From assembly GCF_000374105.1 (NCBI RefSeq), contig NZ_KB893650.1, positions 738,862-802,861 of the forward strand: a stretch of DNA of 64,000 nucleotides, written 5' to 3'. Shown one piece after another: positions 5,734-23,337 of this stretch; position 1 is the stretch's first letter; each line of letters starts with the position of its first letter. Under the pieces are notes generated by a model. It searched no databases. It was not told the origin of the DNA and saw only the letters and a list, made by a program, of their open reading frames with translations. The position numbers and the translations under genes were made by a program. The DNA comes from Kangiella aquimarina DSM 16071 (GTDB lineage Bacteria > Pseudomonadota > Gammaproteobacteria > Enterobacterales > Kangiellaceae).

Positions 5734-5976
5734 CTATTTTTTTGAGTCTGTTGCTTCAGAGCTTTGCTCTGACTTTTGTTTTTGGCTTTGTTCAGTGCTA
5801 TCAAAGTCAGCATCTTTAGACTTGTCTTCGACCTGCTTATCGTCGTCTTTAACTGCTTTTTTGAAGTTCTTGAAGGCTGAGCCAATGTCGCCACCGGCAT
5901 TGCGCAATTTTTTTGTGCCAAATAACAACAAAATAATAACTAAGAGTATGAGTAATTCCCAAATACCAGGTTTCAT
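5734..5976 (-). CDS. tatA: Sec-independent protein translocase TatA
   Basis: The pore-forming subunit of the Tat translocase; 80 residues. It has one transmembrane helix (about residues 5-20), then the hinge [10 protein letters not shown] and an amphipathic helix [13 protein letters not shown], with an acidic, Lys/Gln/Ser-rich tail. The FGTKKL version of the hinge separates it from TatB. It is the first tat gene, 20 bp ahead of tatB and 23 bp after hinT. Confidence 0.95.
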
Positions 5977-5999
5977 GCTTTTACCTCAAGCGTTAATGC

Positions 6000-6338
6000 T
6001 TATGCAAATGGCAGCCGACCACCGCCACCTACGATGTGAATATGAATATGATACACTTCCTGACCGCCATCATCACCTGTATTTATGATCGTTCTGAATC
6101 CATTGCTAAGCCCTGCCTCTTTGGCAAGTTGCGGAACTTTAGTCATCATATATCCCATGATGTCGGCATCCTGCTCTGTGACTTCCGCTAAACTTGCTAT
6201 GTGCTGCTTAGGAATCATTAGCAGATGGGTCGGAGCTTTAGGAGCAATATCCTTAAAAACCAGAATTTTATCGTCTTCGTAAACTTTATCGCTTGGAATG
6301 TCTCCAGCAATAATTTTGCAAAAAATACAGTCGCTCAT
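6000..6338 (-). CDS. hinT: HIT-family purine nucleoside phosphoramidase HinT
   Basis: A cytoplasmic histidine-triad hydrolase of AMP-lysine and related phosphoramidates. The 112 residues carry the N-terminal CIFCKIIAGDIPS motif and the catalytic HIHIHIVGGG near the C-terminus (about residues 97-106). It sits between ubiB and tatA on the same strand, an arrangement seen in other proteobacteria, and is probably co-transcribed with them. Confidence 0.95.
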   Translation of the reverse strand: MSDCIFCKIIAGDIPSDKVYEDDKILVFKDIAPKAPTHLLMIPKQHIASLAEVTEQDADIMGYMMTKVPQLAKEAGLSNGFRTIINTGDDGGQEVYHIHIHIVGGGGRLPFA

Positions 6339-6373
6339 AACTTCTCCTTGAGTTGCAATTGAAAAGCGGCCAG

Positions 6374-8020
6374 TTATTTAGTTGGCCAGAGACTTTTAAT
6401 CAGGAACCAGCCAGCACCTGCTCCTAAAATAGCAGCCGGCCACCAGTCTGTAGGTACCGCAAGATAGCTAATACCACTTAATATTGCCAGGGAGCCGCCA
6501 ATAAATGCGTGCTTAAGTGCATATTGTTGCTGAAGCTTGTGTCTTTCAAGCTCTGTGAACTGGCTTTTAAGTTGCTCGAACTGATTAAGTGAATGACCAA
6601 CCCTGTGCAGGTTATCAAACAACAGTCCTGGGAGCTTAGGTGCTTTGTTCAGCCAGTCTGGGAATTGACGTTTAATGTCTTCGAACATGGCTTTAGGGCC
6701 AATCTGCTCGCGTACCCACTGCTTTAGGTAAGGTTGTGCGGTCTGCCATAAATCAAGTTGTGGATAGAGCTGACGACCCAGGCCCTCAATGTAAAGCAGA
6801 GTTTTTTGCAGAAGAACCAACTGTGGTTGAACCTGCATATTAAAGCGGCGTGCAGTTTGAAATAGTTGAATCAAGAAATGACCAAATGAAATCTCCGCCA
6901 ATGACTTGCCAAAAATAGGTTCGCATGCGGCACGGATAGCAGATTCAAACTCAGGGATGGAAACATCCGCATCAATCCAGCCCGATTCAACGTGTAGCTC
7001 AGCAATGCGTCTGTAATTACGATCAAAGAATGCCAGAAAATTGTCGGCCAGATAGCGCTTATCGTTTTCATCAAGAGTGCCCATAATACCGCAGTCAATG
7101 GCAATGTATTGGGGAGCACCGGGGTTGCTGACATTAACAAAAATGTTGCCGGGATGCATATCCGCATGGAAAAAACTGTCGCGGAATACCTGAGTGAAGA
7201 AAATCTCTACTCCACGATCAGCCAAAGCTTTCATATCAACCCCGCTGGTACGCAGAGCCTCAATGTTACCAATAGGTATGCCTGAGATTTTTTCCATGAC
7301 CAGCATTTTTACTCGGGTGTAATCCCAGTAAATTTTAGGCACATAGAGTAAGTCTGAGTTTTCAAAATTGTGGCGTAAGTGTGAAGTATTAGCTGCTTCA
7401 ATTCTTAAATCGATTTCTCGCGCCAAGGTGCTGTCATATTCCTTAACCACTTCGATAGCTCGCAAGCGACGTGCTTCGCTGGAATACTTTTCAGCCCAGC
7501 GTGCCATGGAATGCATCATCTGCATGTCACGCATGATCTTTTGACGAATTCCTGGACGTAGAATTTTTACCACCACTTCTTCGCCACTGTTTAATGTGGC
7601 TTCATGGACCTGAGCGATTGAAGCAGAAGCCAGCGGCGTATCATTGAAGTTGGAAAATACATCATCTATTGCTGTAGCCAGCTGCTTCTCAACAATTGAG
7701 CGAGCAATGTTAGAATCGAAGGGAGGAACCTGATCTTGCAGTTTTGCCAGTTCGTCTGCTATGTCAGGTGGGACAAGGTCGCGACGAGTAGAAAGCATTT
7801 GTCCGAGTTTGACGTAAATGGGGCCAAGTTCAGTTAAGGCAAGCCTTAAACGTTCACCTCGTGATTTATCTTTAGCTTTACGGCGTAAGCTCAAAGAGAA
7901 GAGTTTAGCCAGAGGTCTGAAGCGGGCCAGAGGAGTTGGAGCAAGAAATTCGTCCAAGCCATAGTGAACCAGTGTGCGATTTATTTTGAGCGCATGGTGT
8001 AATTGTCTAATGGCGTTCAT
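6374..8020 (-). CDS. ubiB: Ubiquinone biosynthesis kinase-like protein UbiB
   Basis: An ABC1/ADCK-type atypical kinase-like ATPase needed for ubiquinone biosynthesis at the inner membrane. The 548 residues include the family KxGQ motif (VKLGQMLSTRRDLVP, about residue 72), an Ala-rich nucleotide loop (SASIAQVHEA), the catalytic FFHADMHPGNIFV region and a DCGIMG metal-binding motif. Two hydrophobic segments at the C-terminus (about 500-545) form the membrane anchor. It follows ubiJ by 30 bp in a ubiE-ubiJ-ubiB operon. Confidence 0.95.
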   Translation of the reverse strand: MNAIRQLHHALKINRTLVHYGLDEFLAPTPLARFRPLAKLFSLSLRRKAKDKSRGERLRLALTELGPIYVKLGQMLSTRRDLVPPDIADELAKLQDQVPPFDSNIARSIVEKQLATAIDDVFSNFNDTPLASASIAQVHEATLNSGEEVVVKILRPGIRQKIMRDMQMMHSMARWAEKYSSEARRLRAIEVVKEYDSTLAREIDLRIEAANTSHLRHNFENSDLLYVPKIYWDYTRVKMLVMEKISGIPIGNIEALRTSGVDMKALADRGVEIFFTQVFRDSFFHADMHPGNIFVNVSNPGAPQYIAIDCGIMGTLDENDKRYLADNFLAFFDRNYRRIAELHVESGWIDADVSIPEFESAIRAACEPIFGKSLAEISFGHFLIQLFQTARRFNMQVQPQLVLLQKTLLYIEGLGRQLYPQLDLWQTAQPYLKQWVREQIGPKAMFEDIKRQFPDWLNKAPKLPGLLFDNLHRVGHSLNQFEQLKSQFTELERHKLQQQYALKHAFIGGSLAILSGISYLAVPTDWWPAAILGAGAGWFLIKSLWPTK

Positions 8021-8050
8021 GCTGTCTTCTCGTAATTAATTTCATGGCGA

Positions 8051-8689
8051 TTAATTGGTATTGTTGTTCGCAGAAGCTTTTTGTTCTACTTTCTGTGTGA
8101 GTCGGTCAATTCTCTGCTTGAGTCTCTCGGCATCCGATTTGAGATCCGCAATAGCATCATAAAAGTTTTCAAGCTCGATTGAGGCTGGAGACAGTTTTGC
8201 TTCAAATCGAATATATTCACTGAAATTCTGCTTTCCAGTATTTACCGTTTTTTGCAACCAGTCGCCAACTTTTCTACCACTGGTAATCATATGATGAGCC
8301 AGAATATCTCCAGTATACTGCGATAAATGCTCTTCCCAATCAATGTCGAGTTGCTTGAAGAAGTTCTGGAAGCTTTGTGCAGTGCCAATTTCTCCAGCAA
8401 AATGAACTTCGCCTTTAAAAATTGAGTCGGAGCCTTTTTCGTTCATGGCTAAATTGAAAAAGCTGGCTGCTGAGCCTTTTAATTCCGCATTCGGGTTTTT
8501 ATCTAACTCTGTCTTAACCAAAATCAGACTATCTTCGATAACAATATAAAAGTCGCTATTAAGATCGGTAAGAATGATTTTAATGATTTTTCCTTCCAGT
8601 GACTTAAGCCTGGACTGGGCATCAGGATCAAGCTTGATTGCTTGATTGACGAGCAGTTCGATGGGAGGGGTTAATAGCGATATCATCAT
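8051..8689 (-). CDS. ubiJ: Ubiquinone biosynthesis accessory factor UbiJ (SCP2 domain)
   Basis: An accessory lipid-binding protein of the soluble Ubi complex. The 212 residues comprise an N-terminal SCP2-type sterol-carrier fold (about residues 10-115) and a C-terminal coiled coil (AIADLKSDAERLKQRIDRL). Sequence similarity in this family is low, and the call rests strongly on its place between ubiE and ubiB, the same as in E. coli. No catalytic residues are expected. Confidence 0.9.
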   Translation of the reverse strand: MMISLLTPPIELLVNQAIKLDPDAQSRLKSLEGKIIKIILTDLNSDFYIVIEDSLILVKTELDKNPNAELKGSAASFFNLAMNEKGSDSIFKGEVHFAGEIGTAQSFQNFFKQLDIDWEEHLSQYTGDILAHHMITSGRKVGDWLQKTVNTGKQNFSEYIRFEAKLSPASIELENFYDAIADLKSDAERLKQRIDRLTQKVEQKASANNNTN

Positions 8690-8713
8690 TTGTCGTGTTA
8701 TTAACAGAAGCCG

Positions 8714-9481
8714 TTAGAACTTTTTCCCAATATGCAGCGCGACGATGCCACCGGTTAAGTTGGTATATTCTACTTCATCAAACCCAGCCTCTGACATCAT
8801 CTGTTTTAGAGTCTCCTGATCGGGATGCATACGAATTGACTCAGCCAGATACTTATAACTTTCAGAGTCATTGGCGACAACTTTACCCATCGCCGGTAGA
8901 AGAGAGAAAGAATAGACATCATAGACTTTAGATAGGGCTGGCAATACTGGTTTAGAAAACTCAAGCACTAACAGCTTGCCACCCGGCTTTAGAATTCGAT
9001 ACATGGATTCAAGCGCTTTTTCCTTCTCGGTAACGTTACGAAGACCAAAAGCTATCGTGATGCGATCAAAATAATTATCCGGGAAAGGTAGGCACTCGGC
9101 GTTAGCCTGAACATACTCCACATTACCGACGATACCGCTATCGACAAGTTTGTTGCGCCCGACTTTAAGCATCGATTCATTGATATCTGCTAAAACCACT
9201 TTACCGCTTGGACCAACGATTTTTGAAAACTTGGCAGTGAGATCACCGGTACCACCGGCTATATCAAGAATAGTCTGGCCGCTGCGTGCTGCAGCGCGTT
9301 CTATGGTGTAACGCTTCCAGACTCTGTGCACACCGAATGACATGAGATCATTCATAACATCATATTTGGCTGCTACCGAGTGAAATACCTCAGCAACTTT
9401 AGCCGCTTTCTGGCTTTTATCCACAGTTTGATAACCAAAATGGGTCGTATTATCTGAAGTGTTCTTATCGTGCTCTGTCAT
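8714..9481 (-). CDS. ubiE: Ubiquinone/menaquinone C-methyltransferase UbiE
   Basis: A SAM-dependent methyltransferase adding the C2 methyl group of ubiquinone (and of menaquinone where made). The 255 residues show the SAM-binding motif [11 protein letters not shown] (about residues 72-82), an acidic motif II region ([11 protein letters not shown]) and the family signatures [17 protein letters not shown] and [17 protein letters not shown]. It is the first of three ubi genes and follows the DUF971 gene by 18 bp. Confidence 0.96.
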
Positions 9482-9499
9482 AGTATTGGGCTTTGTTAA

Positions 9500-9904
9500 T
9501 TAATCGCTGTGCTTTGGATCGAAAGTGTTTACCGATGTATCTTTGCTACGCGTTAGTCCGGCGGCTTCCAGTCGCATTAAATACTGTTGCCAGTTGGTCT
9601 GATGGTCGCGTCCGAGCTCATAAAGTGTTTGCCAAGTATACAGTCCACTGTCATGTCCGTCATCAAATGTGAGCTTGATGGCGTACCGACCAACTGCCTC
9701 AATATTGGTAATTTGGACGTTCTTTTTGCCACCAATGATGGTCATTTCCTGATTACCGTGGCCTCTCACTTCTGCTGAAGGTGAAAATACTCGAAGATAT
9801 TCATAGGGTAGGAAATAAGTATTACCTGGAAAGGCGACTTCGAGTTGTTGGCTTTTTTGATGCAGCTTGATGGCTGTGGGTATTGGTGAACCTTCTGGCG
9901 GCAT
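9500..9904 (-). CDS. DUF971-domain protein (gamma-butyrobetaine hydroxylase N-terminal-like)
   Basis: A small protein of 134 residues made almost entirely of the DUF971 domain, which is also found at the N-terminus of gamma-butyrobetaine hydroxylases. The hallmark motifs are present: LPYEYLRVFSPSAEVRGHG, VGRYAIKLTFDDGHDSGLY and WQTLYELG. Standalone members are widespread beside hslVU and ubiE in proteobacteria, but no molecular function is established. Here it leads the ubi block, and a subtilase gene separates it from hslU. Confidence 0.85.
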   Translation of the reverse strand: MPPEGSPIPTAIKLHQKSQQLEVAFPGNTYFLPYEYLRVFSPSAEVRGHGNQEMTIIGGKKNVQITNIEAVGRYAIKLTFDDGHDSGLYTWQTLYELGRDHQTNWQQYLMRLEAAGLTRSKDTSVNTFDPKHSD

Positions 9905-10026
9905 ATTGCTTACTGAACAAGGGCTAAGTTGCTCCGATTGTAACAGAAATGATGAGGTGGGTTATAAGGTTATATACAGATTTGTTGTTTTATCACTGAG
10001 AAATTGAGCAAACTCATCAGGCATAA

Positions 10027-10075: not shown

Positions 10076-11926
10076 TTACTGCCAGTCAACCTGTAGAGTT
10101 ACACCTGAGTAAGAAGAGTAACCACGGATGCTGATGTACCAACGATCTTGAGCTGGGTTAGAGAAAGAACAAGATTCATTGTTACCATACTTATATGGAC
10201 GGCAATCGTAACTTGATGTAGTAGGCTGTGAACCACGACGTACATACAAGTCTGCGTCACCTGAGCCACCACTCATTTGAACATTCAAGCTGCTCATGCC
10301 AGCAGGAATATCAACATAGTAGTGAGTGAAGCTACCTGAAGCACCTGATAGGTTTTCAAGAGTTGCACTACCGCCTGCTGGAGGAGGGTTTGTACCACCG
10401 CCATCGTGAGTTGCTACTAAGTTAACGTTAGAATAGCTAGTGTAACCACGAACCATTACATAGTAAGTACCAGCTTGTGCTGAGAAGTCACAAGACTCGG
10501 TATTACCATTACGGTACGGACGACAGTCATAGCTAGAAGTAGTAGGCGCGCTACCGAATTTAACGTAGATATCAGCATCACCAGTACCACCTGACATATC
10601 GAAACTTACGTTTGAAGCACTTGATGGTACATCAAAAGTGAAGTCAGTTTCTGAGCCTTGAGCACCAGAGAAAGTTACCGATACGCCATTTTCTAGCTCA
10701 TTGCCACCTGGAGGTGGTGGTGGAGGAGGAGTTGAACCATCAAACAAGCTGTACAACAACAAGTTTGGAGAACCAGATTTAGCATCGCTAACTTTGCCTG
10801 AAGTTGCAGCATTTTCGATAGCCGCTTCAACTTGAGCAGGAGTAGCGTTAGGGTTGTTTGCCAAGTAAAGAGCAGCAACACCAGCTACGTGTGGAGAGGC
10901 CATTGAAGTACCACTGATAGTGTTAGTACCACCATTTGACCATGCTGAAGTGATGCTAGAACCTGGAGCATAGATGTCTAGGCAAGAACCGTAGTTTGAG
11001 AAGCTTGAACGTGAATCGCTTGAAGTTGTAGAACCTACAGTAATTGCACTTGGCTCACGAGCTGGCGAGTAGTTACAAGCGTTGCTGTTATCGTTACCAG
11101 CAGCAACTGCAACAGTTACACCAGAAGCAACAAGGTTAGCAACCGCGTTATCTGTAGCAGATGAAGCACCGCCACCTAAGCTCATGTTAGCAACAGCAGG
11201 TTTAACGTGGTTGTTAGCAACCCAGTCAATACCAGCGATTACGCCAGAGTTAGTACCGCTACCGTTACAGCCTAGAACTTTCAAACCATAAAGCTTAACG
11301 CCTTTAGCTACACCGTAAGTAGAACCACCTACAGTACCTGCTACGTGCGTACCGTGACCATTACAGTCATTTGGATTGCTGTCGTTATCAACGAAGTCAT
11401 AACCACCCATAAAGCGACCGCTGAACTCACTGTGTGAGCCTAGGATACCGGTATCGATGATGTATGCATTAACGTTACTAGCAGTTGTGTTGTAAGTGTA
11501 AGAACCACTTAAAGGAAGGTTACGCTGATCAATGCGGTCAAGGCCCCAAGTGGCATTGTTTTGAGTAGCATTGATGCTAACGATTTGGTCTTCCTCAACT
11601 AGAAGTACGTTAGGATCCTGAGCAAGCTTTTGTGCTGCTTTCTCAGACATATTGAATACGCCGCCTTTAACGGCTTTGGTAAAGGTGCGCTGAACTTGAG
11701 CCTGATATTTACGGCTTAAGTTATCGCTTACCATAGCAATAGCTTGTTCAGAAGCATTGCTAGAGAATAGTCCCATATTAGCTGTCACCGCATCATCCTT
11801 TAGAACAACAATGTATTGTCCTTTTACGGCTTTTTCAGGTTGAGCTGCTGCTTTGAACTCACCAGCATATGCGCCGGTTACGCCCGTCGCCAGCAAAACA
11901 CCTGCGACTACTTGGTTTAGTTTCAT
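10076..11926 (-). CDS. Secreted subtilisin-like serine protease (S8) with I9 propeptide and two PPC domains
   Basis: An extracellular protease of 616 residues. The order is signal peptide (1-21), inhibitor I9 propeptide (about 37-119), proteinase-K-like S8 domain (about 127-395) with catalytic Asp158 (IIDTG), His191 (NGHGTHVAG), oxyanion Asn278 (AAGND) and Ser341 (GTSMASPHV), a proline linker, then two bacterial pre-peptidase C-terminal (PPC) domains (about 410-507 and 520-616). Each PPC carries the same [10 protein letters not shown] motif and paired cysteines. An AAGGGG ribosome site lies 9 bp before the start. PPC domains are commonly removed on or after secretion. The gene sits alone between hslU and the DUF971/ubi block, so it looks like an insertion into conserved gene order. 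Confidence 0.95.
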
Positions 11927-12311
11927 GTTAAAACACCCCTTAGTGTTGTTTATTTTATGGTCCTCGAAGATCGAGGCTCTAGGACTCTACTAAAAATTAT
12001 CACTTCGGAACAATAATATTTATGCATTTAGGCGGTTTTGATAAGTAAATTTTGACGGCTGTCTAATTTGTACAGAGCGTTACAAAACAAATACAAATCA
12101 CGATGTTAGTGTTTACTATCATCAAAATCCTTTGTTTTAATGCGTTTGCGCTTTACAGCTAAGTTGTTTTTGAAGTGCCGGAGGATTTTAGAAGGTTTTT
12201 GTATTTATCTTAGATATCTTCTATTGTTCTTTTTTTTGCACTTAAAAATCTAATGGATAATAAAAGCCTTGAGAATCAATGTGTTGAGTAGTTTATTCGT
12301 TAAAAAAGCAT
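11927..12311 (-). promoter_or_regulatory. Intergenic region upstream of the subtilase gene
   Basis: An AT-rich stretch with no supportable gene, presumed to hold the protease promoter. I could not fix a convincing -35/-10 pair. A small perfect hairpin (CCTCGA / TCGAGG, 11962-11976) falls in the likely 5' untranslated region about 35 bp upstream of the start codon. The strong ribosome site AAGGGG is next to the gene. Confidence 0.4.
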
Positions 12312-15205: not shown

Positions 15206-17431
15206 CTAGAAGGGATCCTGCGGATCAATATCAATTGACCAGCGAACCTTACGAGCGCTGGGCAGTTGTTCAATATTGGAAATTACTGGCTTTAAGGCCC
15301 TTTGAATTAAGCCTCGTTGTTGCGCCTGACATAAAAGCTGTGCCCGCATCTTACCGGCGCGTTTAGCCATCGGAGCAGGGAAGGGGCCAAAGCAGTCAAG
15401 GCCCGTTATCTGATGTAATGACTGGCTGACATCTTTTAAAAACTGCATTGGATATTGCAAGGTCGTGGCTTCTGCACGAAACAATGCCATTGAGGCATAG
15501 GGAGGCAACATTCCTGCTTCGCGCTCCGCTAATATTTGCTGACTGAGAGATTGGTAATCCTGAGTAAAGAGGTTTAGCAACAATGGGTGCTCAGGGTGAT
15601 GGGTTTGTATCACTACCTCACCAGGCTGATCGGCTCGCCCTGCCCGACCGGCGACCTGAGTTAATAGCTGTGCGGTTCTTTCGGTCGCTCTGAAGTCCGC
15701 ACTGAAAAGGCAGCCATCTATGTCTACTACTGCCACCATGGTCAGGTTAGGGAAGTGATGTCCTTTGGCCAGCATTTGAGTACCGACGAGAATATCGACT
15801 TCGTTATTTTTTATAGCCGTCACATAGTCCTGCATTGCCTGTTTACGTCGTGTGCTGTCCCGGTCAATTCTGACTACTTTCTTATTGGGGAAGGCATTGA
15901 TCAAGGCTTGCTCAAGTCGTTCGGTTCCCAGCCCAACAGGAAATAAATCCTCAGCTCCGCATTCTGGACATTGTTTCGGCATAAATACCTGTTTATCACA
16001 ATGATGACAATGCAGGCGTTTCTGCTGTAAATGAAGAGTCATATGCTTGTCGCAGCGTTGGCAGTCCGCAATCCAGCCGCAGCCATGACACATCAGGCTT
16101 GGAGCAAAACCGCGTCGATTGAGGAACACCAGGCATTGATTGCCGTTATCAAGGTGACGCTGCATATTGTCTAATAATGGTTGCGACAATCCGTTATTAA
16201 GGTGGCGTTGGCGTATGTCGAGCACTTTGATATGAGGCGGCTTGGCATTGGCTGCCCTTTTGCGTAATGTCAGATGAACCAACTTACCCTGATTAACATT
16301 GTACATTGACTCCATTGACGGGGTGGCGCTGCCCAATACCACCGGAGTCTGCTCGTCTCTGGCTCGCAGAATAGCTAAATCACGCGCTGAATAACGAAAA
16401 CCTTCCTGCTGTTTATAGGAAACATCATGCTCTTCATCGACTACGATAAGTCCAAGATTTGCGAAAGGCGTAAATAAAGAAGAGCGCGTTCCAATTACGA
16501 TTGAAGTAAGTCCTTGCTTCGCTTTTAGCCAAATATTTAAGCGCTGTCTGTCAGTAAGACCCGAGTGAAGCATGGCAATATCGCAGTCAAAACGGCGTTT
16601 AAATCGCTGTACGGTTTGCGGTGTCAGACCAATTTCTGGAACCAGCACCAAAACCTGTTGTTGATTGGTTAAGACCTTTTCAATCAGTTGCAAGTACACT
16701 TCTGTCTTTCCGCTGCCAGTTACTCCATCCAGTAGGAATCCCTGAAACTGACCAATAGATTTTTGCATGGATTCAACGGCATGGCGTTGCTCCGGATTTA
16801 GGTCTAACGAGTTAGAAGTTTGGCCATGAGAAGTTGGAGTTGGTTTAATCACTTCTTTTTGTAACCAGCCTTTTTCGACCAATGGCTTAAGTTGACTGGG
16901 AGTTAGCTCAAGCTGCTCGAGATCGGAGGCTTGAATTGTCCCTTGATGGTCGATTGCCCACAGTAGAATCTTGTGCTGCTTAACTGCATTCTTATTTAAG
17001 TCAGGAAAGGCGGACTGTCCATCAGCTGTCAGCTTCCAACAGTATTCAGGCTCAAGTTGTGCTGGCTCACCTTTATTCAACAGGCTTGGTAGGCAGGTGG
17101 TAAAAACATCGCCGATCGGATGCATATAATAGTCAGCTGCCCACAATAACAGTTTGAATAAATGGTTCGGTAGTAAAGGCTCGCTATCAATGACTTCCAG
17201 TATGGCCTTGAGTTTGTTTTGCGGTGTTGAAGATATTTCAGTATGTGCAACCACAATACCAACCAACTGCTGACGTCCAAAGGACACCCTCACTCTCGAG
17301 CCAATGGGCGGAGTCGCATGCTGACCCACCAGGTAATCGAAACTACGGCGCAATGGCGTGGGAACAGCGACTTTTAATATAGGCTTAGACTGAGGCATGG
17401 ATGCACAATTGATTAAAGTTGGGCTAAGCAT
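15206..17431 (-). CDS. priA: Primosomal replication restart helicase PriA
   Basis: A 3'-5' superfamily 2 helicase that reloads the replisome at stalled forks. It has an N-terminal DNA-binding domain (KVAVPTPLRRSFDYLV, PPIGSRVRVSFGRQQLVGIV), Walker A GVTGSGKTEVYLQ (about residue 237), a DEEH box (about 333), a zinc-binding module with eight cysteines (about 435-485, motifs CHGCGWIADCQRCD and CHHCDKQVFMPKQCPECG) and helicase motifs V-VI (VDILVGTQMLAKGHHFP, TQVAGRAGRAD). The start could be the ATG at 17398 (MPQSKPILKV), which fits family N-termini better than 17431; neither has a strong ribosome site. Normally priA adjoins rpmE, but here an island lies between them. Confidence 0.97.
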   Translation of the reverse strand: MLSPTLINCASMPQSKPILKVAVPTPLRRSFDYLVGQHATPPIGSRVRVSFGRQQLVGIVVAHTEISSTPQNKLKAILEVIDSEPLLPNHLFKLLLWAADYYMHPIGDVFTTCLPSLLNKGEPAQLEPEYCWKLTADGQSAFPDLNKNAVKQHKILLWAIDHQGTIQASDLEQLELTPSQLKPLVEKGWLQKEVIKPTPTSHGQTSNSLDLNPEQRHAVESMQKSIGQFQGFLLDGVTGSGKTEVYLQLIEKVLTNQQQVLVLVPEIGLTPQTVQRFKRRFDCDIAMLHSGLTDRQRLNIWLKAKQGLTSIVIGTRSSLFTPFANLGLIVVDEEHDVSYKQQEGFRYSARDLAILRARDEQTPVVLGSATPSMESMYNVNQGKLVHLTLRKRAANAKPPHIKVLDIRQRHLNNGLSQPLLDNMQRHLDNGNQCLVFLNRRGFAPSLMCHGCGWIADCQRCDKHMTLHLQQKRLHCHHCDKQVFMPKQCPECGAEDLFPVGLGTERLEQALINAFPNKKVVRIDRDSTRRKQAMQDYVTAIKNNEVDILVGTQMLAKGHHFPNLTMVAVVDIDGCLFSADFRATERTAQLLTQVAGRAGRADQPGEVVIQTHHPEHPLLLNLFTQDYQSLSQQILAEREAGMLPPYASMALFRAEATTLQYPMQFLKDVSQSLHQITGLDCFGPFPAPMAKRAGKMRAQLLCQAQQRGLIQRALKPVISNIEQLPSARKVRWSIDIDPQDPF

Positions 17432-17977: not shown

Positions 17978-18002
17978 AACGACCCAAATGGGTCGTTTTT
18001 TT
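17978..18002 (+). terminator. Rho-independent terminator
   Basis: Stem AACGACCC / GGGTCGTT with an AAAT loop and a run of seven U, 60 bp after the small membrane protein gene. Confidence 0.9.
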
Positions 18003-18235: not shown

Positions 18236-18766
18236 ATGAATTATTTGAAAAGAACTGCTTTAGCTTTTGGTTTATTGCCAGCTTTTGCTGTTGCTCCTGT
18301 AGCCAATGCAGCATCATTAGACGTTGATGTAGACATCGCTCTACCAAACGTTGTTATTTTATATGGTTACACAGACATTGATTTGACCATGACTGCAGAT
18401 CAGTTTGGTCCTCTACTAGATTCAAACTGTACAGCTGATGACTGTTCAGTAGCTGATACAGCTCCAAAGTCGGGTGTTATTAACAACGGTTCAGTAGATC
18501 TTGCATTCACAAACAATGCAGCCGGTACTAATCCAACAATCACATTAGACAACAGCTGGGGTGTTCGTAGCTTCGGTTATACTGCTTTGTCACCAACTAT
18601 TACTGATAATGGTAGTGATGCACCAGTTGGCAACTTGGCTATTCAGCAAATTACTACCCCTTCTGCTTCACTACAAACTGGTTCTGTATCTTTTGATTTA
18701 GACTTGTCGCAAATCAGCACTAACAACGTGCGTGCTAGCTACACAATCACTGTAGTAGGCTCTTAA
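18236..18766 (+). CDS. Exported subunit-like protein, probable major pilin of a chaperone-usher system
   Basis: A 176-residue exported protein with a signal peptide (cleavage after VANA, about residue 23). The mature part is acidic, lacks lysine-rich regions and is rich in Asn, Thr, Ser, Ala and Asp, with two cysteines close together (NCTADDC) and a beta-strand pattern ending in SYTITVVGS. It is not recognisable as a named pilin family. The pilin role is inferred from order (first gene of an operon with a chaperone and an usher), export, small size and beta-rich composition. A strong terminator-like hairpin begins 38 bp after its stop, consistent with excess production of this subunit over the downstream genes. 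Confidence 0.6.
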   Translation: MNYLKRTALAFGLLPAFAVAPVANAASLDVDVDIALPNVVILYGYTDIDLTMTADQFGPLLDSNCTADDCSVADTAPKSGVINNGSVDLAFTNNAAGTNPTITLDNSWGVRSFGYTALSPTITDNGSDAPVGNLAIQQITTPSASLQTGSVSFDLDLSQISTNNVRASYTITVVGS

Positions 18767-18790
18767 TATCGAGTTTGCAGGTCTATTCAA

Positions 18791-19429
18791 ATGTTTGCCT
18801 GTGCAAAAAAGCCGAGCATGAGTTGTTCGGCTTTTTTTGTCTTAAGCCTTGTATCGGCGATCGGTTTACTGTGCGCCGGTAAGGCTGGCGCTGCACAGCA
18901 GGAAACTGCGCGCTGCGAATCATCGCGACTATCGATTCAGCTTAGACGTGGTGACTTAGCCGGAACAGGTAACAATAGCGCTTCGCAATCCATTGGTATC
19001 AATACCACCAAAACTGGCCAGGTAACGATTGGTACCCCAATTGATTTAAATATCGCTGCTGATGTTGGTAGCAACTTTAATGGTATTGTCACAACTGACA
19101 CCAGTGACTGGGTGTGGAGAGCAACAGCTACCAATGGTGGTGGCTTTAAAGGTTTTTTGACAGCCCAATTTGTTTTTAGTGGTCTGGCAATTGGCGACAA
19201 TAAAATATGTAGTGGTCCAAACTCATGCCTGACGGTGACTAATGTTGAAAGCATTGTTACCAACCTTGAATATAAGCAGGGTAGTGGCAAGTTACTGTCA
19301 GCTGAGGGCCGAGTAAGACTGACCGTCGATGTCAGTCAGGCCAATGAGTCGGGTAATTATCGATCAAATCTATCGGTCAGTATTTATGATAATTGGAACG
19401 GTAACCAAGCGCTGATAGACTGTATTTAG
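18791..19429 (+). CDS. Exported subunit-like protein, possible minor pilin or tip subunit
   Basis: A 212-residue exported protein of unknown family. The signal peptide includes SAFFVLSLVSAIGLL and ends near GKAGA. The mature protein begins with a cysteine-containing strand (ARCESSRLSIQL), contains ICSGPNSC and ends ALIDCI, so it has four cysteines able to form disulfides. Gly, Asn, Thr and Ser are abundant, typical of secreted beta proteins. The start at 18791 has GCAGG 9 bp ahead; an alternative ATG at 18818 lies inside the hairpin that spans 18805-18838 and has no ribosome site. In either case its first codons are built from a terminator-like structure. Tip or minor subunit is inferred from context only. 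Confidence 0.55.
   Translation: MFACAKKPSMSCSAFFVLSLVSAIGLLCAGKAGAAQQETARCESSRLSIQLRRGDLAGTGNNSASQSIGINTTKTGQVTIGTPIDLNIAADVGSNFNGIVTTDTSDWVWRATATNGGGFKGFLTAQFVFSGLAIGDNKICSGPNSCLTVTNVESIVTNLEYKQGSGKLLSAEGRVRLTVDVSQANESGNYRSNLSVSIYDNWNGNQALIDCI
18805..18838 (+). terminator. Terminator-like hairpin overlapping the start of the second subunit gene
   Basis: AAAAAAGCCGAGCA / TGTTCGGCTTTTTT forms a 14-bp stem (one G-U pair) around a TGAGT loop and ends in seven U. By form it is an intrinsic terminator. It lies within codons 5-16 of the frame beginning at 18791, after the putative major pilin gene, so it should attenuate transcription into the second subunit, chaperone and usher genes. Confidence 0.75.
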
Positions 19430-19453
19430 TTTTCAGCATAAAAAGAGCCCGCT

Positions 19454-20305
19454 ATGAACTCTCAATCTCACCCTTGTAACCTGTTAAAAATATTGGCTTT
19501 TGTGTTTTTTCTTCTTCTGTCGGAAAGCGCTGTTGCTGCTCAAAATTTAGAGCCAAAGTTAGCCATTTCACCATCACGCATCGAAATGTCGCCAGAGAAA
19601 AAAGCGACAGAAAGTATTACGGTACTGAACCTTGGCAGTAGCCCAATGCAAGTAGAAGTCTATATCCAAAACTGGGACTTTGACGCTAATAACAACTATC
19701 GTGCATTACCGCCTAATGAACAAAGCCTTGATCAATGGCTGATCATTAATCCTGTTCGACTAACCATTCCAGCCAAAAGCCAGCAGACCGTGCGTCTGGC
19801 TGTGCGCCCAAGAGTTAAACCTGAAGATGGTGAGCATCGAGCGATGGTTTTTTTCCGTCAGCTCAATGATCAGGGTAAGGGGCTGAATTATAAGTTTAAT
19901 GTAGGTGTTCCGATTTATGCTTATTTTGGTGAAGTTAAACGTGAATCGGAGCTTCTTGGAATGGACTTTGATCCAATCAAGTTGCAATTTGTTTTCGATA
20001 TTGCCAACAAAGGTAATGCCTATGTGCGCCCTGAAGGTGTCTTCATAGCCATGAAAGCAACTGATGCAGGTTCTGACGCCGACATACTAAAGAAACTCGA
20101 CCTGGAAAAAATGACAGTTGATGGTCTGGGAGCTCTTGCCAGCGGCAAGCTTGCTGCAAAACCTGTTTTCGCTGGTACGCGTCGTCAGGTGCTTTCAGCT
20201 GTGCCAATTAAAGAAATATTAAATGAGTCCTATGTAGTTGCTATCAAAGCCAAAATAGGACAACAAACTTTTACAGAAGTCTATCGCATTAACATTGGGG
20301 AATAA
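19454..20305 (+). CDS. Periplasmic fimbrial chaperone-like protein (PapD-type fold)
   Basis: A 283-residue exported protein, likely the chaperone that donates a strand to pilus subunits. It has a signal peptide (about residues 1-28, ending AVAA), then an immunoglobulin-like N-domain with family marks: ISPSRIEMSP carrying the conserved Arg, TESITVLNLGSSPMQVEVYI, and RLTIPAKSQQTVRLAVRP, the G1-strand type of region. The second domain (about 150-283) is poorly conserved. It is longer than FimC or PapD (about 230) and only distantly similar, resembling the alternate/alpha chaperones. It sits between two subunit-like genes and the usher, 8 bp before the usher start. Confidence 0.78.
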   Translation: MNSQSHPCNLLKILAFVFFLLLSESAVAAQNLEPKLAISPSRIEMSPEKKATESITVLNLGSSPMQVEVYIQNWDFDANNNYRALPPNEQSLDQWLIINPVRLTIPAKSQQTVRLAVRPRVKPEDGEHRAMVFFRQLNDQGKGLNYKFNVGVPIYAYFGEVKRESELLGMDFDPIKLQFVFDIANKGNAYVRPEGVFIAMKATDAGSDADILKKLDLEKMTVDGLGALASGKLAAKPVFAGTRRQVLSAVPIKEILNESYVVAIKAKIGQQTFTEVYRINIGE

Positions 20306-20313
20306 GTTTCACA

Positions 20314-22992
20314 TTGAAAACGATTTTATGGACAAAATTGCTTTTGTCAGGGCTACTATTGTGCTTGCCCCTGGCTGCTTATTCTCAAACATCTTCTTCA
20401 GCACAGACACAAATACAAAGTAATCCTTTTCCTGAAAAACAGCAGAAAGACTCGCTGGATTTACACCGTCCGGTTGATGTACAGACTGCTTATTTTGACG
20501 CTGCAAGTTCTGGCTATGGTGGTGGTCGTTCCTATGGCTTCCGCAAGATTCTGGTTGGTCTTGAGGTTAACAATAAAGAAGTTCTGGTTCTCGACATCGT
20601 TCAGACTGAAAGTGATTACCTGGTGCCTATCAAGGAAGTCTTTCCTGTCATTCAAGCAAGTTATACTCTTGAGCATGGTGTTTTAACCATACGAGTTCCT
20701 GGCAGTGAAGTTGAAATGTCTTCGCGGGTAACTTACCGAATTGATGGTGAGTTATGGGCGTCGCTTGGAACCCTCAACGAATACCTAAAAGTTAATGCCC
20801 GTTTTGATCCGGCAAAGTATGCAGTAACCTTTCTACCACCCTGGCAGGAAGAAACCAAAAAGACTGATGCTCCTGCTGAATCTCTAGAGGTTGAGTTTGG
20901 ACCAGACCCTTTCAGTCTGCGTCAGATTCGTTTAACTCATGAAGTCCAGGGCGTGGAAAAAGATGACGAAGCATTAGAGTTTGATATCTTAACTGAGCGC
21001 AGTGAGTTGGTAGCAACAGGATCAGCTGCAGAAGGGTCATGGCTAATTGATGCCGAGAAAGTGAATGACGAAAGCTGGAAGCTTGACGATTATTTCTGGA
21101 CTAAAAGAAGTGATCATCACCAGTGGCTGATTGGTAAACAGACAGTCAGTCCATCGGTTATTTCACCTGCGGTGACCATGACGGGGGGGCAATATTTCTA
21201 TAGTAATCAGGCCATTCCATACAACGCTTATCAGGATATTTCCCAGTCCAGCTTTTTTCGCGAATTAGGTAATTCTGTACAGCGTATTCGAGGTACTGCA
21301 GAACCGGGTGCAATTGCCGAACTTTATGTTAATAATCAATTGGTTGGTGAAACATTTGTGCGGCTCGATGGGACCTATGATTTCGGAGAGTTTAGAACCG
21401 AATCAAGCCTGTTTAATGAAATTGAAGTGGTCATTCTTGACCCGGTGAATCGCTCTGAACTGGAAAGGCAGCTAAAAACCCGAGCAAGCTCAGATTATCT
21501 GCTAAATGAAGGACAAGTAGTTACCAGTGTGGCGCTCGGCAGAAAGGGAAACTGGCTTGACCCAGATTATGTCAATCAGGGCAATGCAGGTATGTTTCTT
21601 TATCGCTACGGTATTTCTGATAGTACGACCGTCGAGGCCGGATATTTACTTGATGACACCTCTGTAACTACTACCGGAATTGTTTCATCTCTGGGTAATA
21701 ACTTTGTTGGGGCAATGCGTGTTGCCGACAGAAATAATGCCATTGCAACACAGTTAGAACTGGATGGTTTTGGTAAACATTGGCGTTTGTCGACCTTTGT
21801 ACGCCAGGAAGAAGCTAACTTTTATGAAGGGCGTGACGAGAAAGTCACCTCGGCCAATGGTTATTATTACTATACCCCCGACCCTTCCTTACGATTAGAG
21901 CTTTTGGGGCGTTACCAAGAAACGGGAGATAAGGTCAGCTATGTCAAACCGGGTATTTTTTACAGTCCCAGTTACAATTTTTCGGTAGGAACACGCCCTG
22001 ATGCGGATGGCGATTATCGTACCGAGCTTTTTTACCGACCTTCTCAGGATGCGCGTTTTCGTATCACTCACAAACCTGATGAGCAAACGGGGCGATTTGA
22101 GTGGAATGCATCTGATAATGTGAATGGTTATATGTCGGGTCGTATGTATAAAGATACCATTGGTAACCAAACTTACGAAAATACCATTATTGAGAAGGCC
22201 GTTGGTTTTTATTGGTACCCTGATAGTTGGACTGACTACCGTCAGTTTCGATTTGAGCTGAATCATTCGAATGAATACGGTGTGGGAGTATTTACGGAGT
22301 ATCGTACTCAGTTAATGCCCGGAGTTTATTTTGATCTAAGATTACGTGATGCTGATCCACAGTTTGATGGTGGGTTATCTGCGTTTGCGCGAATTTCAAT
22401 GGACTTTGCAGTGGCTAAAGGCAGCCTGGTCCCGAGTAGCAACCGACTGGCTTACAATACAGCGGGCACCATTGCTGGAACCATCAAAACCGATGGAGAC
22501 TGTTCTGAACTTGAACATGTTAGTCTGTTATTAAATGGGGTCGCATACAAGGTTCCGGTGAAAGCCTGTACCTTCTACCTCGATTATGTGACTCCAGGTC
22601 TCTACAAGGTCATGCTGGATGGAGAATTTATGCCGATTGATATGGTGCCGGAAGGCAAGAGTCATGTGATAAAGGTTGCGCCATCCTCTGTGACAAATGT
22701 GGATTTTGTCGTTAATTCAGAATACAGCGCTATGGGGCAGCTCAAATCTGCAACGGGGCAGGCTTTATCCAATGTCAGATTAACTCTGTTTAACGAGAAG
22801 GGGGAAATCATGACAGAAACTCTGACTGATCAGTTTGGCTATTACAGAGTTGATGGTCTGGTGAATGGCAACTACACCATTAGTGTTGTGGGAATTGGTG
22901 GTCAAAAACTTGCAGAGCGAACTTTTAGCATTGATGGTGACTTCCTGTTTGGTGTTGATATCATCATGCCGCCATCACTGCCACGACAATAG
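20314..22992 (+). CDS. Outer-membrane usher-like protein with C-terminal carboxypeptidase-regulatory domain
   Basis: An 892-residue secreted beta-barrel protein, probably the usher that assembles and exports the subunits. A signal peptide (about 1-25) is followed by an N-terminal domain (about 60-165: KILVGLEVNNKEVLVL, LVPIKEVFPVI) resembling a periplasmic amidase-N/Cu-amine-oxidase-N type fold. A plug-like segment (about 320-380) has VQRIRGTAEPGAIAELYVNN, then come many beta strands (about 395-740) and a C-terminal carboxypeptidase-regulatory-like domain (about 805-880, YYRVDGLVNGNYTISVVG). Start is a TTG; no ATG or GTG is in frame before the upstream stop. GGGGA lies 12 bp away. It is clearly usher-like but does not match classical FimD or PapC in detail. 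Confidence 0.78.
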   Translation: MKTILWTKLLLSGLLLCLPLAAYSQTSSSAQTQIQSNPFPEKQQKDSLDLHRPVDVQTAYFDAASSGYGGGRSYGFRKILVGLEVNNKEVLVLDIVQTESDYLVPIKEVFPVIQASYTLEHGVLTIRVPGSEVEMSSRVTYRIDGELWASLGTLNEYLKVNARFDPAKYAVTFLPPWQEETKKTDAPAESLEVEFGPDPFSLRQIRLTHEVQGVEKDDEALEFDILTERSELVATGSAAEGSWLIDAEKVNDESWKLDDYFWTKRSDHHQWLIGKQTVSPSVISPAVTMTGGQYFYSNQAIPYNAYQDISQSSFFRELGNSVQRIRGTAEPGAIAELYVNNQLVGETFVRLDGTYDFGEFRTESSLFNEIEVVILDPVNRSELERQLKTRASSDYLLNEGQVVTSVALGRKGNWLDPDYVNQGNAGMFLYRYGISDSTTVEAGYLLDDTSVTTTGIVSSLGNNFVGAMRVADRNNAIATQLELDGFGKHWRLSTFVRQEEANFYEGRDEKVTSANGYYYYTPDPSLRLELLGRYQETGDKVSYVKPGIFYSPSYNFSVGTRPDADGDYRTELFYRPSQDARFRITHKPDEQTGRFEWNASDNVNGYMSGRMYKDTIGNQTYENTIIEKAVGFYWYPDSWTDYRQFRFELNHSNEYGVGVFTEYRTQLMPGVYFDLRLRDADPQFDGGLSAFARISMDFAVAKGSLVPSSNRLAYNTAGTIAGTIKTDGDCSELEHVSLLLNGVAYKVPVKACTFYLDYVTPGLYKVMLDGEFMPIDMVPEGKSHVIKVAPSSVTNVDFVVNSEYSAMGQLKSATGQALSNVRLTLFNEKGEIMTETLTDQFGYYRVDGLVNGNYTISVVGIGGQKLAERTFSIDGDFLFGVDIIMPPSLPRQ

Positions 22993-23127: not shown

Positions 23128-23337
23128 ATGAAGCAAGGTATTCACCCAGAATATAAAACTGTAACTGCAACTTGCAGCTGCGGTAATGTTATCGAAGTTG
23201 GTTCTACAGGCTCAGACGTTAACTTAGACGTTTGTTCAGCTTGCCACCCATTCTATACAGGTAAGCAGAAGATTGTTGACTCAGGTGGCCGTGTAGACCG
23301 TTTCCGTAAGCGTTTCGGTAGCCGTAAATTGAAATAA
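23128..23337 (+). CDS. rpmE: 50S ribosomal protein L31 (zinc-binding type)
   Basis: Ribosomal protein L31, 69 residues. The cysteine pattern CSC (residues 16 and 18) and CSAC (37 and 40) marks the zinc-containing C+ form. It begins [19 protein letters not shown] and has the [17 protein letters not shown] signature. A ribosome site (AGAG) sits about 8 bp ahead. It is a single-gene unit closed by a strong terminator, and normally neighbours priA. Confidence 0.98.

Follow-up and report, generated by a model that had tools for sequence, protein, structure and literature searches.

A predicted chaperone-usher cassette of Kangiella aquimarina whose usher falls outside the archaic, classical and alternative clades

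Introduction

Between priA and rpmE, the genome of Kangiella aquimarina DSM 16071 carries four consecutive genes coding for two exported proteins, a PapD-like chaperone and an usher that the standard usher models do not recognize. The locus raises the question of what these genes build and to which class of assembly systems they belong. It lies in a stretch of 64,000 nucleotides analyzed as a whole (the window), to which the coordinates and strands of Table 1 refer. Three chaperone-usher pathways have been described, known as classical, alternative and archaic (PMC4654587), and clades are named from usher sequences (PMC9820224). The best explanation of the four genes is that they quite probably form one compact chaperone-usher operon, which would export and assemble a surface fibre with one subunit (S1) as shaft and the other (S2) as tip, and whose usher clade is separate from all three pathways. 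What the analysis shows directly is family relations, the predicted domain order of the usher, the homology of S1 and S2 together with their N-terminal difference, and the co-conservation of the genes.

Layout of the cassette

Four head-to-tail open reading frames (ORFs) occupy positions 18236-22992, separated by gaps of 24, 24 and 8 bp in a program-made ORF list. They code, in order, for S1, S2, the chaperone and the usher. Hydrophobic N-terminal export signals, a feature also noted in the initial annotation of this DNA, were seen by eye on all four translations, and the ORFs and Pfam confirmed its placement of the genes between priA and rpmE; a further 103-residue gene, which it had not listed, shares that interval. 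The four frames recur as conserved proteins in 12 of the 20 genus genomes examined, so they are not chance ORFs.

Identity and predicted fold of the usher

The Pfam models Usher (PF00577), TcfC and CooC_C do not match the usher. The usher of locus L150 served as positive control for PF00577, and TcfC and CooC_C were absent at E 1 from 13 of 13 family members while both were present in the EcpC control. NCBIfam gave sub-cut-off MSCRAMM matches at the C-terminal end and nothing else. A sequence search of the PDB with single proteins and profiles returned no usher or chaperone match, the hits of the usher profile being C-domain-like folds and two reductases.

Profile comparison by hhalign revealed the relationship. 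The usher profile matched archaic ushers at E 1.1e-16, aligned from the N-domain onward through the barrel, and alternative (alpha) ushers at E 5e-13. Classical ushers matched at E 1e-11, a value from a slightly mixed set: besides six K-12 ushers it included L150, which the main usher tree put among the archaic ushers and which owes that label to its tree position, not to SCPU neighbours. Reversed decoys reached E 0.019 or worse. Single-sequence comparisons were too weak for judgement (C-terminal half of EcpC E 3e-4, FimD 0.06); alignments with several members gave a clear result.

An AlphaFold2 (AF2) model of the usher (pLDDT 73.4, pTM 0.56) placed FimD and PapC first in a Foldseek search (3rfz, E 3.9e-26 over 888 columns). 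Its predicted domain order is that of FimD, with an N-domain, a plug after the sixth barrel strand and two C-domains. The plug of FimD and PapC is inserted at the same place in the barrel. The plug-like segment noticed earlier reappears as a predicted domain. Two other early readings change: the carboxypeptidase-regulatory domain thought to replace the two C-domains (Pfam CarboxypepD_reg, residues 808-874) coincides with the second of two predicted C-domains, and the N-domain, once likened to an amidase-N fold, matched no amidase-N family and sits in the position of the FimD N-domain.

An LptD-like barrel was rejected, as comparison with one LptD sequence gave E 0.17 and the reversed control scored at least as well (0.079), whereas usher profiles match clearly and ushers lead the Foldseek results. 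Neither secretins nor autotransporters appeared among the 50 Foldseek matches listed; no profile comparison was made with them.

Co-conservation beyond the genus

Profile searches were extended to more distant genomes. Among 369 genomes of the class, its own included, the usher was matched at E 1.3e-15 or better in four others (G218, G567, G491 and G392), and in seven further genomes all matches were weaker (E 1.4e-5 to 6.9e-4) and lay within the C-terminal domain. Across the phylum, 30 of 299 genomes had any match; apart from its own genome, the strong ones came from G567, which had contributed to the profile, and from G775, which had not and belongs to another class (E 3.9e-153). Within the order of G775, strong matches occurred in 3 of 150 genomes (G775, G828 and G853).

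The usher is accompanied by a chaperone of the cassette family in all seven of these far genomes and by S1 in six, the contig of G828 ending within the chaperone gene. An S1 profile run over 266 genomes of the class detected S1 in three (G000, G218 and G392), all with the usher; no orphan S1 was found among the 266, and all three carriers were already profile members. Outside the profile, S1 was matched in G853, from another class, at E 1.7e-28. The S2 profile matched in G491 (E 2.9e-5), G828 (6e-12), G853 (5e-4) and, weakly, G218 (0.0037); the S2 of G775, unmatched by the Kangiella profile, was assigned by position and then included in the profile used for G828 and G853. The S2 of G567 is assigned by position only, and G392 has none. 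Gene order is S1-S2-chaperone-usher in the window, G218, G567 and G491; in G775 and G853 S2 follows the chaperone (S1-chaperone-S2-usher), and G828 shows chaperone-S2-usher. A second S1-like ORF lies upstream of S1 in G775 (L145:10732-11406, minus strand; 224 residues, E 8.8e-12), and a 238-residue ORF occupies the corresponding place in L169 (10265-10981).

A non-classical chaperone with an altered anchor

The chaperone exceeds the Pfam cut-off for PapD_N (E 1.7e-5; 25.2 bits against 23), in agreement with its early description as PapD-like; its 283 residues had been noted as more than usual. By hhalign it matches DUF4402-type chaperones at E 2e-14, alpha chaperones at 8e-13 and classical ones weakly (2.8e-5). 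PHROGs gave one weak unnamed match, to the chaperone, and nothing else.

A Pro is shared by chaperones across chaperone-usher systems, and an F1-strand Arg marks archaic and alternative chaperones, in which it anchors the subunit carboxylate, along with a second-domain Tyr and Arg (PMC4654587). Residues P100, R129 and R192 align with EcpB P60, R89 and R148. In an alignment of 13 members (six from Kangiella, seven far), P100 is present in every row and the F1 Arg R129 and second-domain Arg R192 in 12 each, the exception to both being the 163-residue chaperone of G392. The second-domain Tyr (EcpB Y169) occurs in none of the 12 rows having the stretch, where P237 takes the aligned position, and the G1 stretch has no invariant Lys. 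With both Arg residues kept and the Tyr absent, the chaperone is, as far as this alignment goes, non-classical with an altered anchor. The conserved Arg of the initial annotation stands in part: the classical A1-strand Arg is present (R42) and found in 9 of 12 rows having that stretch, yet R129 and R192 are better conserved.

The chaperone of G392 (L077:8025-8516, plus strand) is a single domain that lacks both the second domain and the F1 Arg column. Next to it are a 967-residue usher with extra CarboxypepD_reg domains and then a 280-residue ORF (11414-12256).

Two related subunits that differ at the N-terminus

Neither S1 nor S2 has a Pfam or NCBIfam match, which agrees with the earlier proposal of new pilin families. 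The two are homologous (hhalign profile match E 2.7e-7, decoy 0.2). A profile of four far S2 sequences alone matches Kangiella S2 (E 5.5e-10) and not S1 (0.019). The match between the subunits begins with residue 46 of S1 and residue 45 of S2, leaving about 20 mature residues before it in S1 and about 7 in S2, with signal peptides judged by eye. Those of S1 read ASLDVDVDIALP in the window and ASLDIDVDIELP in G853.

Residues 27-36 of S1 form a strand of alternating Asp and aliphatic residues. Strict alternation extends over 10 of 10 positions in 12 of 17 aligned rows, over 9 in four and over 8 in one, a score that carries a small bias as the best of a few start points. No equally good 10-residue window exists elsewhere in S1 in 11 of the 17 rows. 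The strand is absent from S2 in the profile alignment of the two. The AF2 model of S1 (pLDDT 69, pTM 0.58) has predicted immunoglobulin (Ig)-like strands at residues 39-175 and leaves residues 27-36 unpaired, partly at low confidence. Its fold matches are middling, with chaperone-usher subunits accounting for 22 of the 50 listed.

Proposed mechanism

As established for chaperone-usher systems, the chaperone first provides donor-strand complementation and strand exchange then takes place at the usher (PMC4654587), a scheme that would fit all parts of the cassette. S1 and S2 would reach the periplasm via their signal peptides, and the chaperone would cap each unfinished Ig-like subunit, with R129 and R192 as the anchor for the subunit C-terminus. 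The usher N-domain would receive the chaperone-subunit complexes and the two C-domains would hold them, while the growing fibre would go through the barrel after the plug moves out. The Asp/aliphatic strand of S1 would fill the groove of the next subunit, and S1 would thereby build the shaft. S2, related to S1 and without the strand, could receive a strand but not donate one, which would place it at the tip. We infer the donor-strand exchange by S1, the capping of the tip by S2 and the existence of the fibre. A role in attachment or biofilm formation is a guess by analogy.

The subunits might instead be exported and assembled as an amorphous coat or as short tips, not as a pilus. Some FGL chaperone-usher systems make amorphous coats, and the cassette offers two subunits only and no two-domain adhesin; against this, its chaperone carries the non-classical F1 Arg, and the coat appears rather unlikely. 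S2, for its part, could terminate the fibre at its base or belong to the shaft as a minor subunit. Gene order is uninformative here, the far S2 proteins are too dissimilar to S1 for comparison, and terminators such as PapH and FimI exist. Terminators need a donor strand, however, and S2 has none in the profile alignment. In seven Kangiella rows (L013-L018 and L052) S2 also varies more than S1 does (33-36% identity to the window protein against 44-49%), as a tip could, although not in the most distant row, L055 of G202 (32% against 33%). We regard a terminator or minor-subunit role as unlikely and retain S2 as the candidate tip. If so, a two-subunit design whose tip resembles a subunit minus the donor strand would offer a simple setting in which to study the minimum required for starting and extending a donor-strand polymer.

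Position of the usher among the described classes

The main usher tree comprised 34 rows: 11 of the cassette family, eight alpha, six classical, four archaic from SCPU loci plus L150, three DUF4402-type and L093. A single branch sets each named group apart from the rest. Archaic and classical ushers join at 100/99 with the cassette family outside, and alpha ushers separate at 100/99, again excluding it. The family itself is supported at 99/99 (100/99 in another usher tree). By sequence, the usher and its relatives from two proteobacterial classes firmly form a clade of their own, which appears to lie outside the archaic, classical and alternative ushers.

Loci with DUF4402 subunits are probably its nearest neighbours. 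Support for its grouping with L093 is 98/94 and with the DUF4402 type 95/92, and it stays with the latter (SH-aLRT 96) in a reduced tree of 31 rows from which the long rows L093_G442, alpha_0 and arch_L150 were omitted. Weighing against this placement, which is moderate, are the long branches and uneven residue composition flagged for it, and the other usher tree did not separate the branching order of the cassette family, L093 and the DUF4402 type. The L093 locus (5756-9909, minus strand) has three genes, for a 180-residue subunit, a chaperone and an usher; it branches beside the cassette family and has another subunit type.

The initial annotation had suggested a clade of the alternate or alpha type, and the cassette could be a far member of that class, CS1/ECP-like, at a distance where Pfam models fail. 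The non-classical and second-domain Arg residues common to the chaperone and EcpB, the hhalign match to alpha ushers, a sub-cut-off CarboxypepD_reg match in the second C-domain of EcpC too, and a faint match of S1 to alpha pilins (25 N-terminal columns, E 0.0026) all lean that way. TcfC and CooC_C nevertheless fail even at E 1, and the alpha branch excludes the cassette family. Forcing the two together costs 8.9 log-units, a weak rejection (p-AU 0.03) from a quick 31-row tree with the group named afterwards. Membership in the alpha class is improbable.

It is an even question whether the cassette and the DUF4402 loci represent a fourth major chaperone-usher lineage, of which this branch would be a minimal fibre builder: a self-polymerizing subunit whose Asp-aliphatic donor strand is strongly conserved, a tip that derives from this subunit and has no such strand, a long chaperone whose carboxylate anchor is modified, and an usher. 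Systems of this kind are already known; as far as the literature was searched, the clade, the two subunit families and the separation from the three described classes are new. That search (titles and abstract openings, with subscription papers and preprints mostly outside) found no such class, nothing on DUF4402 loci and, judged by title, nothing related on a Kangiella usher or fimbria. If there is a lineage outside the three pathways that standard family models miss, counts of such fibres in environmental proteobacteria would be too low.

Distribution in Kangiella and history of the cassette

The usher has one match in its own 2.68-Mb genome, where no PF00577 usher occurs, and a contig search returned two loci with relatives, both in Kangiella metagenome-assembled genomes (89 and 86% identity). 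Near full-length relatives among 197 genomes of the order were restricted to the genus (8 of the 13 genus genomes in the set); a ninth match, outside the genus, covered the C-terminal domain only. In a search via PriA, the order S1-S2-chaperone-usher was found between the 103-residue gene and rpmE in 12 of the 20 genus genomes (G000, G195, G184, G161, G107, G148, G135, G122, G197, G203, G202 and G201). Six had an empty site, with neighbours 175-263 bp apart by ORF ends (G199, G053, G091, G032, G007 and G073), and two were not scored (G200, whose contig ends at the site, and G198, an incomplete genome without a PriA match).

PriA and usher trees agree in outline, with G122 placed differently, and patristic distances correlate at r = 0.956 over 11 species, a value reached in 0 of 2000 permutations. 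Because the site is the same, usher distances track those of PriA and six genomes keep the site empty, presence in the genus ancestor followed by three losses is the likelier history, and the cassette an old resident rather than the acquired system suggested at first. Against this reading, counted on the PriA tree two gains take fewer steps than three losses, presence is patchy, and GC content dips to 0.36-0.40 just upstream of and at S1. With two gains, the cassette would have entered one site on two occasions, and G202 would require an unsampled donor; G202 lies among the empty-site genomes, and its usher has diverged as far as the species has (ratio 1.19; other deep pairs, 0.94). With usher-body GC of 0.44-0.45, near that of the flanks, and housekeeping neighbours by Pfam (no search for mobile elements was made), a recent horizontal acquisition into the priA-rpmE gap is very improbable.

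Neighbouring features

Kangiella loci that span both sides retain the 103-residue gene between priA and rpmE whether the cassette is present or absent. A penicillin-binding protein (Pfam) is encoded downstream. Rfam found nothing in the window, and a tblastn search of plasmids gave no match.

Table 1. Coordinates of the cassette, its predicted domains and other features of the window
Feature	Position	Strand	Basis and remarks
S1, exported subunit, 176 residues	18236..18766	+	ORF, family alignments, AF2 model; putative polymerizing pilin
S1 residues 27-36, alternating Asp/aliphatic strand	18314..18343	+	17-row alignment, AF2; putative donor strand
S2, exported subunit, 212 residues	18791..19429	+	ORF, profile alignments; putative tip subunit without donor strand
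PapD-like periplasmic chaperone, 283 residues	19454..20305	+	Pfam PapD_N, profile comparison
Usher, 892 residues, TTG start	20314..22992	+	Profile comparison, AF2 model, Foldseek, trees
Usher N-domain, residues 77-173	20542..20832	+	AF2 secondary structure; hhalign to archaic ushers begins here
Usher barrel strands 1-6, residues 200-297	20911..21204	+	AF2 model
Usher plug domain, residues 322-387, after sixth barrel strand	21277..21474	+	AF2 model, Foldseek
Remaining usher barrel, residues 402-701	21517..22416	+	AF2 model
Usher C-terminal domain 1, residues 718-802	22465..22719	+	AF2 model
Usher C-terminal domain 2, residues 804-873	22723..22932	+	AF2 model; Pfam CarboxypepD_reg
Subtilase (Peptidase_S8), 616 residues	10076..11926	-	I9 propeptide and two PPC domains
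priA	15206..17431	-	Pfam
Membrane-protein gene, 103 residues	17606..17917	+	No family above cut-off (Pfam, NCBIfam)
Terminator-like hairpin downstream of the 103-residue gene	17978..17997	+	Pattern scan: 8 found, 5.3 expected from shuffles
rpmE (ribosomal protein L31)	23128..23337	+	Pfam

Comparison with known systems

The DUF4402 loci (L094 and L148; L146 by usher and chaperone) come closest, their profiles matching the cassette usher at E 2e-18 as well as its chaperone. Their ushers, like that of the cassette, have no Pfam Usher or TcfC match at E 0.1 and carry CarboxypepD_reg or SdrD_B at the C-terminal end. They differ in their DUF4402 subunits, to which neither S1 (E 0.082) nor S2 (0.44) is matched. 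A larger relative, L148 (3277-9207, plus strand), has two DUF4402 subunits, a 312-residue chaperone and a 1285-residue usher.

Alpha systems (ECP, CS1/CFA-I) share the signature chaperone Arg and Pro and the usher profile match. Unlike them, the cassette has no TcfC or CooC_C, a separate usher clade, other subunits, a chaperone about 60 residues longer than EcpB (283 against 222) and no EcpD-type adhesin gene. Archaic (sigma, Csu-type) systems align with it over the usher N-domain and barrel. However, S1 and S2 have no SCPU (PF05229) match, nor is there one elsewhere in the genome, and archaic ushers group with classical ones instead. From the classical FimD/PapC systems the cassette is set apart by the absence of PF00577, of the invariant G1 Lys in the chaperone and of a FimH-like adhesin gene, yet its usher has the same predicted domain order and fold.

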